DNA of 38,660 nucleotides, taken from positions 1 through 38,660 of IMG/VR virus record IMGVR_UViG_3300038760_000054. One strand, written 5' to 3'. Below are positions 2,994-33,106 of the stretch, in pieces. The stretch comes from a virus. The notes beneath the pieces are model-generated. The model was not told the DNA's origin. It saw only the letters and a list, made by a program, of their open reading frames with translations, and did not search any database. The position numbers and the translations under genes are program-made. Numbering within the stretch: position 1 is the first letter of the stretch; each line of letters begins with the position of its first letter.

Positions 2994-5764
2994 TGTGCGC
3001 CCTCCTCGGGCTGTTGCGCGGCTCTTGTACCACCACGGAAGGCTGCAAGCGATCCAGTCACAGAAAGGGCGTTAGCTATCATCCTAGACTTTGCCTCTGA
3101 TAAAGGTTGACCAGCGATGGCTTCATTTATTGCATCTAGCGCCTTGGTTACATTTGTTCCCCTGACTTCCGTTAGGGATGTTGCAATTTCCTGCATAAGA
3201 GCAGCACGTCGCGCTTGGTCCGCTTGGGGGGTTGTGTCGGCTAGAACTTGGGTTATTCTCCGAACCGCCCCAACTGGCTCCCCTCTCGCAAGAGTGCCCA
3301 GAACGCCTGGGGTGGTTACCTCGTCAACTGCGGCCTGTCCTGCCTGCCTGACAGCAGTAGCAGACCCGCGAGACACTGCCGCGCGTGTCGCAAGCTGTGG
3401 GACCTCTGCCTCCATTAGCTTACTAATACGCCTTGCAGCCTCTGGGCCTATTGCGGCCTCAATCTTGGCTGTAGTGGCGCGCGAGGAAAGCGATTGAATC
3501 GCCTGCCGTACTTCCCGCGCGTCTAGGTTTTGGTCCGAGGCCACAGAGCGAACATTTGACATTCCCTCCTCAAGAGCCTCCCGAAGACCGCGCTTGAATG
3601 CAGACTTCTCAGCCTTAGACGCGCCCTCCATTTGCGCAGCAACATCCTCTAGCCGCACGTTTTGGGTAAGCACACCACGGCCCATGGCTAGAGCGTTATC
3701 CTCTGCAATCTTGTTGCCCCCAAGCCTAACAGCCCGGCCATATGTCGGGACCGCTTCAGTTAGTGCAACCCTAAGATCTGACGCCAAACTAGCCGCGCCG
3801 ATACCTTCCCGGCTCAATCGTCCGAACTGGTCTTTCGTTTCCTCGGCAATGCCGCCTAGCTGGATTTTGATTTCATTCAACTGCTGCACGTTTAGGGGAT
3901 TCGTGAACGTCACTGTTCCATCGTCCGCAATGCTCGCCATAATCTGCTGGTTTTTCGTCCCTGCAATCTGCATGGCGTCGTTTGCGTCTTGAACCGCTCG
4001 GTTGAGTGTCTTGCTTGGAATGCGGTCAAGTACCCCCTCAATCTCCCGCCCCGCTGGGCTGGCGTAGTTGATAGGCTGCTCAAATGCCGCGTTGTAGGCT
4101 GTTCGCCTTGCTGCAGCAGACCCTTGGGATATCTCTCTAGCCGCCGCCTTAACTCCACCGGGTTTGCCTAGGATGGCATCGAATGCAGACCGCAACTTAG
4201 GGCCGCTTTCCGCCGCTCTGGCTTCAACAGCCTCCCGGCCTACGCGCAAAGCCCCGCCACCTTCAGCCATAGCCGTGTCAAGGGCCTGCGCCGTTGCCGG
4301 TCCTGCATCTGCCAACATGGCCTGATCGCCTACCGCGCCGAGCCGGGCCTGTGCTGCGGGTAGGTCCTCAACAGATAGAGCATTTTTAACGACACGAGCG
4401 GCGTTGGGGCTTAAGCCAAGCTCCCTTGCAATCACGCCGATATCTGCTGATTTGAAAAAATCAATCGCGTTTCTAACCCCTGCACTAATAGCCGGGGTCA
4501 ATCCGCCAACTATGCCGCCGAATGCGCCGCCTGTTATGGCGTCTTCCTGTGCTAAACTAGCCCTTTCCTCTAGGGTCTGTCCCCTGCCAGCACCAGCGAA
4601 ACCGCCCTCTATTGATCCGGCTAATGCGCCTCCGCCTGCGCCTAAAGCCATTTGCGCGGCTAAAGATTCAGGAGCCGCCGCAAGAATGGCAGGGCCAGCC
4701 GTAGCAATAGCCGCAGGAGCTGCAGCCAGACCACCGGCCACCTGTAACGCCATAGTTTGCCCTGGGCGTTCCTCTGCCATAGCGCGCTGTCCCGCCCGCG
4801 TTGCTTGTTGTGCATCCTCAGAAAATAAACCGATTGCCTCGTCTGCGAATTGACCAACAAAGGGAACCCCTTGAATTGCCGTCGCACCGCGCGCCGCAAT
4901 CGGGTTCTGTGCAATCAATTGTTCATTTACACCGCTGCGAAATGCCCCCGCTGGGGTGGCACCCTCTAGGATGCGCCCAACCGTTTCGGGGTCCACTGTG
5001 GCCATGGCTGGGCCTACAAAGCCTTGTGTTCCGTCTGGCTGTGAATATACCACGCCGCCATCATCTGTGCTGGCAATGACGCGCGCACCGGCTGGCAAGT
5101 CCCGCCCGCCTGACAGAATGTTCGTAACGATCCCGGTATTAACGTCGCTTAGATCGCCTCGGTTGTAAGCGTCAATGATTGTTGGGGTTAATTGCTGCGC
5201 TGTCAGACCTTGCTGCGCTGGCGCGGCCTGCTGTTGCGTTGGGGCGACCTCTGGAAACGCGGCCTCATACCTAGCGCGGCTTTCTGGCGTCCCGCCGCCC
5301 TCTCGGTACAGTCTGTGGAGCCGTTCAACTGGGCTTTCCTGCAGCGTGTCAGAGTCGGGACCGCCTGCCGCAACGGAAGAACCGCCGCCGCCCTGTGTGC
5401 TGAGAGGGCGCAGAAACTGCCTCTTAAACACATCCGCCGCCTCTTCGGCTGTGGTTGTCTGTAAAAGAGATTGACCGGCCCTTCTCTCTGTCGTTGCAAG
5501 TTCCTGCAGGGCAAAGTCCAATTGTGTATCCTGGTCGCTAACCGGAACCCCGCGCGATTGGGCAAATGCCTCCAGTTCACGCCGACGCGGACCGGTATGC
5601 TGGAATAGGCCGAATCCGCCACGGGAACCGGGAACAATAGGGCTTATCTCATTGATGCCAGGATTGAACCCACTTTCGCGGCTTATCTCGTTGGCAATGC
5701 CCTCTGCAACATGAGGCGCTAGGCCGCGATTGATAAGCCCTTGAACTACCTCCGCGCGGGCCAT
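2990..5764 (-). CDS. gp16-like ejection protein with N-terminal lysozyme domain
   Basis: 924 residues, against about 609 in P22 gp16. Residues 1-125 look like the phage tail-lysozyme family (Phage_lysozyme2 type), with the ISRESGF motif (candidate catalytic Glu30), then SRGGFGLFQHTGPRR. Residues ~335-400 are Ala/Gly-rich and hydrophobic and could insert into a membrane. The rest is largely helical. It is last of the gp7-gp20-gp16 series, the P22 order for proteins ejected into the cell to form a DNA conduit. The ATG overlaps the gp20-like stop (TAATG). Inference: it digests local peptidoglycan and helps DNA cross the inner membrane. The family assignment rests on gene order and N-terminal motifs, as ejection proteins diverge fast. 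Confidence 0.8.
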   Translation of the reverse strand: MARAEVVQGLINRGLAPHVAEGIANEISRESGFNPGINEISPIVPGSRGGFGLFQHTGPRRRELEAFAQSRGVPVSDQDTQLDFALQELATTERRAGQSLLQTTTAEEAADVFKRQFLRPLSTQGGGGSSVAAGGPDSDTLQESPVERLHRLYREGGGTPESRARYEAAFPEVAPTQQQAAPAQQGLTAQQLTPTIIDAYNRGDLSDVNTGIVTNILSGGRDLPAGARVIASTDDGGVVYSQPDGTQGFVGPAMATVDPETVGRILEGATPAGAFRSGVNEQLIAQNPIAARGATAIQGVPFVGQFADEAIGLFSEDAQQATRAGQRAMAEERPGQTMALQVAGGLAAAPAAIATAGPAILAAAPESLAAQMALGAGGGALAGSIEGGFAGAGRGQTLEERASLAQEDAITGGAFGGIVGGLTPAISAGVRNAIDFFKSADIGVIARELGLSPNAARVVKNALSVEDLPAAQARLGAVGDQAMLADAGPATAQALDTAMAEGGGALRVGREAVEARAAESGPKLRSAFDAILGKPGGVKAAAREISQGSAAARRTAYNAAFEQPINYASPAGREIEGVLDRIPSKTLNRAVQDANDAMQIAGTKNQQIMASIADDGTVTFTNPLNVQQLNEIKIQLGGIAEETKDQFGRLSREGIGAASLASDLRVALTEAVPTYGRAVRLGGNKIAEDNALAMGRGVLTQNVRLEDVAAQMEGASKAEKSAFKRGLREALEEGMSNVRSVASDQNLDAREVRQAIQSLSSRATTAKIEAAIGPEAARRISKLMEAEVPQLATRAAVSRGSATAVRQAGQAAVDEVTTPGVLGTLARGEPVGAVRRITQVLADTTPQADQARRAALMQEIATSLTEVRGTNVTKALDAINEAIAGQPLSEAKSRMIANALSVTGSLAAFRGGTRAAQQPEEGAQ

Positions 5765-25739: not shown

Positions 25740-25965
25740 TCAAAAATCGGGAGGGTTCGGGTTGTAAATCATCCCGTAAACGGGTACCTTTACGTCGATG
25801 ACACGTGGAACTCTCCAAAGTTCGTGTCGTCCAAGGCGGCGTTTGATCTTACCGGATCGCGCCGCCGCTTTTACATGTAGCTTATCCCAAGCAAATCCTC
25901 AACTGTAAATCTGTCAACGCAAACGTTTACAACATTTACAAGACTTCCCCCGAGGGGTTCACGCT
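25740..25965 (-). pseudogene. Frameshifted remnant of a small HTH (excisionase-like) protein
   Basis: One minus-strand frame reads VNVCVDRFTVEDLLGISYM and stops. The adjacent frame resumes at once with VKAAARSGKIKRRLGRHELW and RVPRVIDVKVPVYGMIYNP, then stops at PPDF. Joined, this has the look of a MerR/excisionase-type winged helix. The change of frame falls at an AAAA run and the next stop follows a TTTTT run. No start codon exists upstream. It may be a decayed regulator, a sequencing error or chance. Confidence 0.35.
25904..25940. promoter_or_regulatory. Cluster of TGTAAAT/TTTACA operator-like half-sites
   Basis: TGTAAAT at 25904-25910 faces GTTTACA at 25925-25931 and ATTTACA at 25934-25940. 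Further copies occur at 25763-25769 and 25870-25875. Repeated inverted half-sites with helical-turn spacing suggest binding of a dimeric regulator or an initiator protein. No cognate protein is identifiable. Confidence 0.35.
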
Positions 25966-26262
25966 GTGGGGGTTATGGTGTAGGTATGATCTTGCATGAT
26001 GCATCGCGTGCAAAGCGAGCAGACTGCTTGTGTCTGGTATGGACCCTTGCCAAATCATATTCGCAGACGAGCTGCGCGAAACTCGGAACCAACCTGGTAA
26101 CGTTGCAAAACCTACCTGCACCCTTTTCATTGCCCCCTATCCTCTACTGTGATAGACAGACATTGAGCGAATGCGGTGCGCAGTAAGCCAGAGCCGGGGT
26201 GCAAACTCGGTCGCTGGTGGGTCAGGCCACAAAACTGTTGAGTCAGGACTAGCTCATACTAC

Positions 26263-26329
26263 CCGCCCTTTGGCGGTGATACGAGTAATATGCAGAAATT
26301 GCATATTGCTATCTAACCGCCCTTTTGCG
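26263..26329. other. Tandem hairpins
   Basis: Three small stems occur in 67 bases: CCGCC/GGCGG (26263-26276), AATATGCA/TGCATATT with a five-base loop (26287-26307), and CCGC/GCGG (26316-26329). The outer two share the direct repeat CCGCCCTTT. No U-run follows, so simple intrinsic termination is not obvious. It could be a structured RNA leader or a replication signal. Confidence 0.4.
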
Positions 26330-26460
26330 GGCTCACCTTGCCATTGCTCCATGTAAGCTTTGGAATTAGCGACATGCTGGTGGGTCTACATGAGCGCGGC
26401 AACCCTATATCGAACAGGCCGGAACCTTTCGTAACTTGTCGCGCTTATTTCCCCAGCACT

Positions 26461-26489
26461 TTGCAATACACCTGTTAATGTGGTACTGT
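26461..26489 (+). promoter_or_regulatory. Promoter of the Tad1/Acb2-like gene
   Basis: TTGCAA (26461-26466) and TACTGT (26484-26489) with 17 bases between, 31 bases before the ATG. It shares the TTGCAA and GTGGTA elements with the conserved early promoters but not their AACCC flank, so it is a divergent relative or an independent promoter. Confidence 0.6.
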
Positions 26490-26519
26490 AGCGGCTCAAC
26501 CAACATAGGAGTTCTCAAC

Positions 26520-26888
26520 ATGAGGCTTATTGACATTCACAAGGGCAGCGATGCCAACGACAATATCAAGCTTGAGGCTGTAGATGAAATCGGCCCCGGC
26601 AATGCCAATCACAAATATGATGCTCACTGGGATACAGGCGGCGGCTACATGGGCGCTCAAGGTATCAAGATGCAAAAGGGCGCTATCCAAGAGGTTGGGC
26701 GCAACGGCATCACTGACGAGGTGTTACTAGCGATTGTTCTTGATCGCCTGCGGGGGTTTCAAGCTGGTAAGTTCTCTTGTCGTGAAAACGCTCTAGCAAT
26801 CACCAACATTGAACAGGGCCTGCACTGGATGAATTCCCGCACCAAAGACCGTGTAGCGCGCGGCGTTGAGGGCGTGTCTAAGGCTTGA
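26520..26888 (+). CDS. Tad1/Acb2-like hairpin-domain protein (candidate anti-CBASS/anti-Thoeris)
   Basis: 122 residues; ATG after TAGGAG. The N-terminal ~50 residues (EIGPGNANHKYDAHW) form one module. Residues ~58-122 contain GAIQEVGRNGITDEVLLAIV, FSCRENALAITNIEQGLHWM and RTKDRVARGVEGVSKA. This last pattern matches the helical hairpin family that includes Tad1 and Acb2, phage proteins that sequester cyclic nucleotide or ADP-ribose signals of Thoeris and CBASS defence. Other family members may have different roles. The gene stands alone on the plus strand with its own promoter and terminator, consistent with immediate early expression. Confidence 0.65.
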   Translation: MRLIDIHKGSDANDNIKLEAVDEIGPGNANHKYDAHWDTGGGYMGAQGIKMQKGAIQEVGRNGITDEVLLAIVLDRLRGFQAGKFSCRENALAITNIEQGLHWMNSRTKDRVARGVEGVSKA

Positions 26889-26958
26889 CCCACCCCACCT
26901 TACACGCTAGACATAGGGCAGATATCATCTCTCCTGATGTGTCTCTCACTGTCTCTCC

Positions 26959-27000
26959 CCCGCCGCTTAGCTTAAAACCTAGCGGCGGGTTCCTCGTTTT
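26959..27000. terminator. Intrinsic terminator between convergent genes
   Basis: CCCGCCGCT (26959-26967) pairs perfectly with AGCGGCGGG (26981-26989) across a 13-base loop. The plus-strand side continues TTCCTCGTTTT. It sits between the plus-strand Tad1/Acb2-like gene and the end of the leftward SSB-methyltransferase operon, so it likely serves mainly the plus gene and perhaps both. Confidence 0.75.
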
Positions 27001-27018
27001 CTATGCAAAGAAACTGGC

Positions 27019-27189
27019 TTAACCGTTGTTGGCGATAATCTCAACCTTCACAACTTCAAGAACCCCGAGAACCAAAGTAAGCGGCACCGTGCCGTCGTAT
27101 CGCATAATGACCTCCTTGATAGCCTCTGCCATTTCGCTTGATGCATCTATTGGCCTCTGTCCGGTTTTGATTTCCGTCAGGTCGCTCAT
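27019..27189 (-). CDS. Small hypothetical protein, 56 residues
   Basis: The ATG overlaps the stop of the nuclease-like gene (ATGA), and GGGGAAG lies upstream. The product is amphipathic (MSDLTEIKTGQRPIDASSEM, then VIMRYDGTVPLTLVLGVLEV). No family is recognised. It is the last gene of the leftward operon, ending 19 bases from the terminator. Confidence 0.7.
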   Translation of the reverse strand: MSDLTEIKTGQRPIDASSEMAEAIKEVIMRYDGTVPLTLVLGVLEVVKVEIIANNG

Positions 27190-27530
27190 TTAACTTCCCC
27201 TATCTTGCCACGGTGCTCTATGTCTGTCACAGGCTCGATCCCCAGCACCGCCAGGGCCTCGGTAACGCTCTTAACCACGTATACCTTGCTGCCGCGCCAG
27301 TCCCGGTGCCATTCGACTTGGTTATCTGCCAGCCCGCCGTTTTTCTTGTACCTCTTCAACTTGGCTGTACCGATGATCTCCACAAGGAAGTCATCGCCAC
27401 GGAAACCAACCAGGGTATCAGGGCAACCCTTGCCAACTGAGTGGAGAAGCAGCACAGACGCCCCCGCATCGCGCCACGCTGCAACTATATCGGCTTGGTT
27501 GTCATCAACATTGTTGGCGTATCTAGGCAA
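27186..27530 (-). CDS. VRR-NUC / PD-(D/E)XK-type nuclease-like protein, catalytic Lys missing
   Basis: 114 residues from TTG at 27530, which lies nine bases after AGGAGG. ATG at 27575 would intrude far into the methyltransferase gene. The pattern DDNQADIVAAWRDAGASVLL, then HSVGKGCPDTLVG and VEWHRDWRGSKVYVVKS, is that of phage VRR-NUC-like endonucleases. In this family Asp (PDTLVG) is followed by an E-x-K. Here the segment reads FLVEIIG, so the Lys is Ile. It may be inactive, use a nearby Lys (TAKLKR), or be regulatory. It follows the methyltransferase directly. Confidence 0.65.
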   Translation of the reverse strand: MPRYANNVDDNQADIVAAWRDAGASVLLLHSVGKGCPDTLVGFRGDDFLVEIIGTAKLKRYKKNGGLADNQVEWHRDWRGSKVYVVKSVTEALAVLGIEPVTDIEHRGKIGEVK

Positions 27531-28221
27531 GGTCAAATCCCTCCTGTGTTGGTTCCGGCTTATCAGCCTGCACAAACATGTCCGGTTGGCGATAGGCTTC
27601 CTCTACGCGCTTGCAGGCTATGTCGAAATAATCAGGATCTAGCTCGATGCCAATACCCGCGCGGCCTAGCTTGGCGCAGGCTACTAGGGTGGTGCCAGAT
27701 CCCATGAAGGGGTCAAAAACAGTTCCGGCGCACCAGTCTATGACGTTTCGCATCAAATCAACGGGCTTCTGTGTCGGGTGGTATTCGTTGCCCGTCCGAG
27801 TGCCCATCAATACATCATTCGGTCGCCCATTCGGAAACCTATGATTGGGGCCTGCATAGAAAGCACAAACTTCAGTCTTTCGCCCGTGCTCATGATCAAG
27901 GTCTCCCATGCTGTGATTATTCTTCACCCATGTTATAAGGCTTTTAGGTTCTGGGATGGCACCTATGTTATTCCACCTCATCCAAACATACGAAGAGAAT
28001 TGAACGGGCAGGCTGCAGGTCCATAAAAGAAGATCAATCCCCGCGTCATTTTCTATCTTTTTATGCTTTTCTATGCGATAATTGCTCTGAAAATTCATCC
28101 CGTAAGGGGGGTCGGTAACGCATGACTCTATAGGGCAAAGGAGTGGTGTTATTTCCCGGCAATCGCCAAGATACAAGGTGCAGTCGCCAATCACCTCTTT
28201 ACGCTTCCACGGGTCACCCAT
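27523..28221 (-). CDS. DNA methyltransferase, DPPY type (orphan)
   Basis: 232 residues. DPPYG at 37-41 and FDPFMGSGTT at 169-178 occur in the order catalytic motif then AdoMet motif, typical of the beta-type amino-methyltransferases. HPTQKPVDLM at ~148-157 is the motif that precedes AdoMet binding. Expected product: N6-methyladenine, or N4-methylcytosine. The target-recognition region between is short, and no partner restriction enzyme is nearby. It probably protects phage DNA or alters regulation. It overlaps both neighbours. Confidence 0.9.
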   Translation of the reverse strand: MGDPWKRKEVIGDCTLYLGDCREITPLLCPIESCVTDPPYGMNFQSNYRIEKHKKIENDAGIDLLLWTCSLPVQFSSYVWMRWNNIGAIPEPKSLITWVKNNHSMGDLDHEHGRKTEVCAFYAGPNHRFPNGRPNDVLMGTRTGNEYHPTQKPVDLMRNVIDWCAGTVFDPFMGSGTTLVACAKLGRAGIGIELDPDYFDIACKRVEEAYRQPDMFVQADKPEPTQEGFDLA

Positions 28222-32761: not shown

Positions 32762-32873
32762 CCTCGCCACCATGAAACGACAACGGCTATGGCTATTCCG
32801 CCAGGGCTTCACCACCGCAGCGGCTCATATGGCCAAAGCAATCGACGCAATGAAACAAGGAGAGACAGAATGA
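32754..32873 (+). CDS. Small basic protein, 39 residues
   Basis: The ATG lies inside the end of the annealing gene (ATGTGTAA). The product starts MCNLATMKRQRLWLFRQGFT and ends AIDAMKQGETE. It tiles exactly between its neighbours, and its end contains the ribosome site of the next gene. It may be a real mini-protein or a translational link. Confidence 0.5.
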   Translation: MCNLATMKRQRLWLFRQGFTTAAAHMAKAIDAMKQGETE

Positions 32874-33106
32874 ACACATCAGCAACAGAGGGCCAGCTAC
32901 GCAGCTATGTCGAGCGCACAGAACGGCTTAACGACGATGCCAAGGCGATCAGCGATGACAAGAAAGAGCTGAGCGCCGAAATCAAGGGCCAAGGCTACTG
33001 TGTCAAAACCATTGGCGAACTTGTGAAGCGGCGCGCTGCTGACAAGGATAAGCTGGCCGAAGCCGACGCTATGCTGGAAATGTATTCCGACGTTATGGGC
33101 ATGTAA
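32870..33106 (+). CDS. GapR-like (DUF2312) DNA-binding protein
   Basis: 78 residues; ATG after AAGGAGAGACAGA. The pattern GQLRSYVERTERLNDDAKAI, then KKELSAEIKGQGYCVKTIGE and a C-terminal LEMYSDVMGM, matches DUF2312. The founder is GapR, the alphaproteobacterial protein that clamps overtwisted DNA ahead of replication and transcription. A phage copy could assist its own replication or displace host GapR. It is a strong hint of an alphaproteobacterial host. Confidence 0.85.
   Translation: MNTSATEGQLRSYVERTERLNDDAKAISDDKKELSAEIKGQGYCVKTIGELVKRRAADKDKLAEADAMLEMYSDVMGM

Follow-up and report, generated by a model that had tools for sequence, protein, structure and literature searches.

A probable full-length Tad1-family signal sponge gene, apparently gained as a cassette, in a P22-like podophage

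The DNA analyzed here (the window) is the whole 38,660-nt stretch of the IMG/VR virus record IMGVR_UViG_3300038760_000054. It represents a P22-like podophage whose portal, coat, Hc3, ejection protein, and terminase genes are all oriented leftward. A tad1-like gene that is predicted to encode a 122-aa signal sponge is located at 26520–26888 on the plus strand. The original prediction claimed a gene in the region 26461–27000, and this gene is real: the ORF is intact and begins with an ATG. A strong ribosome-binding site (RBS), consisting of the Shine-Dalgarno sequence AGGAG at 26507–26511 (plus strand), precedes the ATG, which lies 8 nt downstream. The ATG is the right start: many homologs begin with the same N-terminal pattern, MR(E/T)(I/L)xxHKVNPAND, and have a similar length. 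The gene was also described as solitary, and it is indeed the only gene on its strand, with leftward genes on both sides. In a survey of 88 family loci with a crude ORF caller, which gives rough figures, a tight neighbor on the same strand was found in 62 loci and both neighbors were on the opposite strand in 4. The isolation of tad1 is therefore unusual but not unique.

A private promoter and a private terminator were also attributed to the gene, and this claim holds only in part. A plausible candidate promoter with an extended -10 TG (TTGCAA-17-TACTGT; 26461–26489, plus strand) is the best in the 5' region and stands in front of the strong RBS. However, it is weak, since the best site of shuffled sequences equals it in 30% of cases. 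An intrinsic terminator, a hairpin (26959–26989; -19.4 kcal/mol, z -4.2) with a T-rich tail, is present at 26959–27000 on the plus strand. It is not private because the same sequence, collinear with positions 3595–3703 of the reverse strand of locus L317, already exists in G021, a related record without tad1. In other words, a terminator that arrived together with the gene, as looked for in a moron, was not found here.

Several lines of evidence place the tad1 product in the Tad1 family. A phmmer search against solved structures returned only Tad1 proteins, with CbTad1 matched over its full length (E 6e-23). A profile built from 73 homologs matched CbTad1 (PDB 7uav) from end to end (positions 1–121, E 7e-42), and residues 15–121 of the product matched phrog_2428 (E 2.6e-30). 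The C-terminal motif from which an Acb2/Tad1 hairpin counter-defense protein had been predicted is present and occurs family-wide in the 73 homologs. The family call was right, and the sequence, profile, and fold matches sharpen it to Tad1. The profile search proposed at the time gave a mixed outcome: the Pfam model PF24729 (Acb2_Tad1_hairpin) matched the C-terminal helices at residues 70–105 (E 2.8e-5), but the score of 24.7 bits falls below the gathering cut-off of 27 bits. The same model is matched by 71 of the 73 homologs at E <= 0.01, and the full-length Tad1 evidence overrides the small shortfall. Searches of NCBIfam and PADLOC with the product gave no match. Motif scans detected at least 417 homologous loci in IMG/VR, the best among the matches listed having 56% identity, and 39 in GTDB genomes; 123 phage records matched the product.

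Further evidence comes from structure prediction. An AF2 model of the monomer, made from an alignment of the 73 family sequences, had a pLDDT of 93.8 and was the one used; prediction from the single sequence was poor (pLDDT 52.5). The model displays the Tad1 layout, in which an N-terminal antiparallel beta-sheet is followed by two long C-terminal helices. The N-terminal domain (residues 1–51; 26520–26672, plus strand), which is also supported by the CbTad1 alignment, is predicted to contain strands at residues 2–4, 16–20, 32–40, and 43–51. The C-terminal two-helix hairpin (residues 66–114; 26715–26861, plus strand) is predicted to consist of helices at 66–82 and 88–114 and carries the motif FQxG...REN...RTxxRxxR. 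In a Foldseek search with this model, all 20 significant PDB matches were chains of CbTad1 or CmTad1, with TM scores reaching 0.86; among them were structures solved in complex with gcADPR, cA3, or cAAG.

Could the protein instead be an Acb2-type anti-CBASS protein, a hairpin-only sponge for cyclic oligonucleotides to which an unrelated N-terminal extension has been added? The Pfam hairpin domain is common to both proteins and named for both, and Acb2 relies on a related two-helix hairpin and the same sponge principle (PMC12043709). However, the beta-domain that separates Tad1 from Acb2 is missing in Acb2, whose N-terminal helix is short (PMC12043709). Homology to the Tad1 beta-domain extends over the entire N-terminal part of the tad1 product, and this part is predicted to fold with it. 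Moreover, the significant PDB matches were all Tad1, and no Acb2 structure was among the 50 PDB matches listed for the model. The Acb2-type reading is thereby largely refuted and appears very improbable. The original prediction treated the N-terminal ~50 residues as extra and took them as a sign of a new device. This was mistaken, as these residues align with CbTad1 over the full length and correspond to Tad1's own beta-domain, which makes the protein a Tad1 and not an elongated Acb2. Sequence and model together make it very probable that tad1 encodes a full-length Tad1-family sponge. The gene is a further member of a known family, and the particular features put forward as new are not borne out.

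Some homologs are annotated as a phage structural protein or as an "ABC transporter ATPase"; examples are the records of phages OLIVR5 and P59 and the chain name of 7uav. That the tad1 product is either of these is hardly conceivable, because the very sequences so annotated have been solved as Tad1 and because an ABC ATPase domain would not fit into 122 residues with this predicted fold (AF2). The annotation is an inherited error.

CbTad1, from a Clostridium botulinum prophage (PDB 7uav, 7uaw, 8smd, 8kbe, and 8kbf), is homologous to the tad1 product over its full length, with ~40% identity in the structural alignment, and has the same predicted fold except for small differences in loop length before the hairpin. 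SBSphiJ7 Tad1, the founding anti-Thoeris protein, shares the domain order and 49% identity over the hairpin part, but it is a 142-aa protein with a longer N-terminal domain. Its gene has a neighbor on the same strand on either side (in sister phages, the downstream one is UvsX/RecA-like), whereas tad1 in the window is alone on its strand. The jumbo-phage Tad1 phiKZ-type gp184 (PDB 8y6v_I) is homologous in its C-terminal Tad1 part, but an added N-terminal region brings it to 230 aa as against 122 aa here; it is reported to be injected with the phage (PMC13282480). A Tad1 in a podophage is to be expected because podo-, myo-, and siphoviruses are all known to carry homologs (PMC12043709). Other layouts also occur. 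In gp131 of Burkholderia phage FLC9 (L012:74-1087; 338 aa), a domain identified by eye as a cyclophilin-type peptidyl-prolyl isomerase is fused before a complete Tad1-like domain. In three viral homologs (L007, L008, and L009), the N-terminal part that precedes the GKFSCREN...RTxDR hairpin is shorter or of another kind; these are possibly layouts between Tad1 and Acb2.

The tad1 product retains Q52, G54, G63, Q81, N90, R107, and R111, which are invariant across the 73 homologs. Two residues of CbTad1, F82 and N92, ligand-pocket residues reported to have a role in gcADPR binding, are also retained; their equivalents in the alignment are F80, found in 69 of 72 homologs, and the invariant N90. 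At columns that are at least 90% conserved, the product departs from the family in three places, with M51 where the others have F, Q99 in place of E, and G100 in place of A. Position 51 is F in 70 of 72 homologs and position 100 is A in 67 of 72. In a family tree, which leaves out the tad1 of record G004, the product falls inside the family on a long branch (1.68 compared with a median of 0.5). The two tested proteins, SBSphiJ7 Tad1 and CbTad1, are in other clades. The long branch and the M at the near-invariant position 51 suggest that the affinity or ligand range of the product may differ from that of other members.

One possibility is that the protein keeps the Tad1 fold but has decayed or become specialized, so that its ligand range is lost or shifted, for example to cyclic trinucleotides alone or to cADPR isomers alone. 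The long branch, M51, and G100 are consistent with this reading, as is a report that Tad1 homologs differ in the range of cyclic dinucleotides that they bind (PMC12043709). Nonetheless, every never-varying residue of the family motif is retained, the reading frame is intact, and the RBS is good, which makes such a loss or shift unlikely. It is also conceivable, if quite unlikely, that the protein is a Tad1 so divergent in its core (M51, G100, and the long branch) that it has a ligand range unseen in tested members, such as a preference for a signal outside classical Thoeris and CBASS.

The tad1 product, a full-length Tad1 by the analysis above, likely serves to sequester cyclic ADP-ribose signals, cyclic oligonucleotide signals, or both, as used in Thoeris and CBASS. 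The published Tad1 mechanism is the sequestration of Thoeris and CBASS signals by a hexamer (PMC12043709), and this mechanism is also the most likely one here. The product, modeled as a monomer, would probably assemble into the known Tad1 hexamer of three dimers. The hexamer would bind, without cutting, the alarm nucleotides of infected hosts, presumably glycocyclic ADP-ribose (Thoeris) and/or cyclic di- and trinucleotides (CBASS). With the signals bound, the defense effectors would stay off. Expression of a Tad1 may carry a cost, as the Panoptes system is triggered by CbTad1 (PMC12657218).

How did tad1 come to stand in this genome? Comparison with G021 reveals an empty site. On the reverse strand of L317, the G021 locus, positions 3545–3598 run straight into 3595–3703 without tad1. 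These two stretches match window positions 26392–26446 and 26883–27001, and both flanks score above 2000 of 2000 shuffles. The segment absent from G021 is 440 bp long (26443–26882, plus strand), has a 4-bp direct repeat, GCTT, at its flanks, and holds the promoter candidate, the RBS, and tad1. It contains all bases of the tad1 ORF except the last few, and the TGA stop codon is recipient sequence. A VRR-NUC-like nuclease gene (27186–27575, minus strand) lies downstream in the convergent orientation, close to the insertion site on its right. Its product is 29% identical to phiGT1_55, annotated as a virus-type replication-repair nuclease, and matches the endonuclease family phrog_93.

Other relatives give a similar picture. 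In Sulfitobacter phage phiGT1, the flanking small-RNA element (described below), nuclease, and methylase occur in the same order with no tad1, and the gene is absent from the element-bearing relatives phiGT1, G015, G021, G040, and G041. Of 20 relatives chosen by their coat or methylase genes, one carries tad1, but elsewhere. The P22-like structural relatives L017, L018, L020, and L036 could not serve as empty-site controls because they have hardly any of the early region in common with the window.

The simplest reading of these sequence comparisons is that tad1 is a cassette gained in the window phage and absent from its relatives. Loss of tad1 in G021 or elsewhere, rather than gain here, is formally an alternative; parsimony favors gain. 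Under gain, tad1 would be an accessory cassette ("moron") acquired by a P22-like podophage, and it would have entered between a small-RNA/tRNA region and the nuclease-methylase operon. The cassette would have brought its own RBS and probably a promoter, and would use the pre-existing terminator. With an empty site in a relative, joints marked by a 4-bp repeat, a recipient stop codon, and a pre-existing terminator, the locus offers a clean case of the acquisition of a sponge gene. It also corrects two earlier readings, that of an "extra" N-terminus and that of a "private" terminator.

A small structured RNA of ~80 nt is present at 25794–25876 on the plus strand. It is located ~650 bases upstream of tad1, outside the tad1 unit and independent of the cassette. 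It has two hairpins, the first rich in compensatory changes and the second followed by T residues as a terminator. Covariance-model hits, which alone define its members as pattern scans gave mostly unrelated coding matches, were obtained in six distinct phage sequences: the window, phiGT1 (L289:2499-2580), L317, L340/L346, L343, and L347. Among 21 base pairs, nine changed on both sides, a covariation that none of 500 shuffles reached. A conserved sigma70-like promoter lies at a fixed distance; it reads TTGTAA-17-TACCTT in the window (25762–25790) and TTGCAA-17-TATATT in phiGT1 and other members. In phiGT1 and L343, the RNA is directly beside a VRR-type nuclease gene. An Rfam search of the tad1 neighborhood including 25794–25876 gave no match, and the phiGT1 paper (PMC10386132) makes no mention of a small RNA, hairpin, or terminator. 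The element resembles a small-RNA gene; it is a candidate for a new small RNA family.

Three further observations concern the surroundings. G021 has tRNA genes for Gln, His, Leu (two), and Pro, five in all (L317:9589-10070, minus strand), in the interval from the small RNA to the tad1 site, although ARAGORN detected none in the window. Nested hairpins with CCGCCCTTTGGCGG repeats around AGTAATATGCA/TGCATATTGCT occur at window positions 26255–26345 (-35.2 kcal/mol, z -6.2), and 25 nt of them are conserved in G021. Farther away, window positions 32789–33106 encode a protein with a GapR-like DNA-binding domain (Pfam E 8.8e-21), which adjoins Rad52/NinB-type recombination genes.
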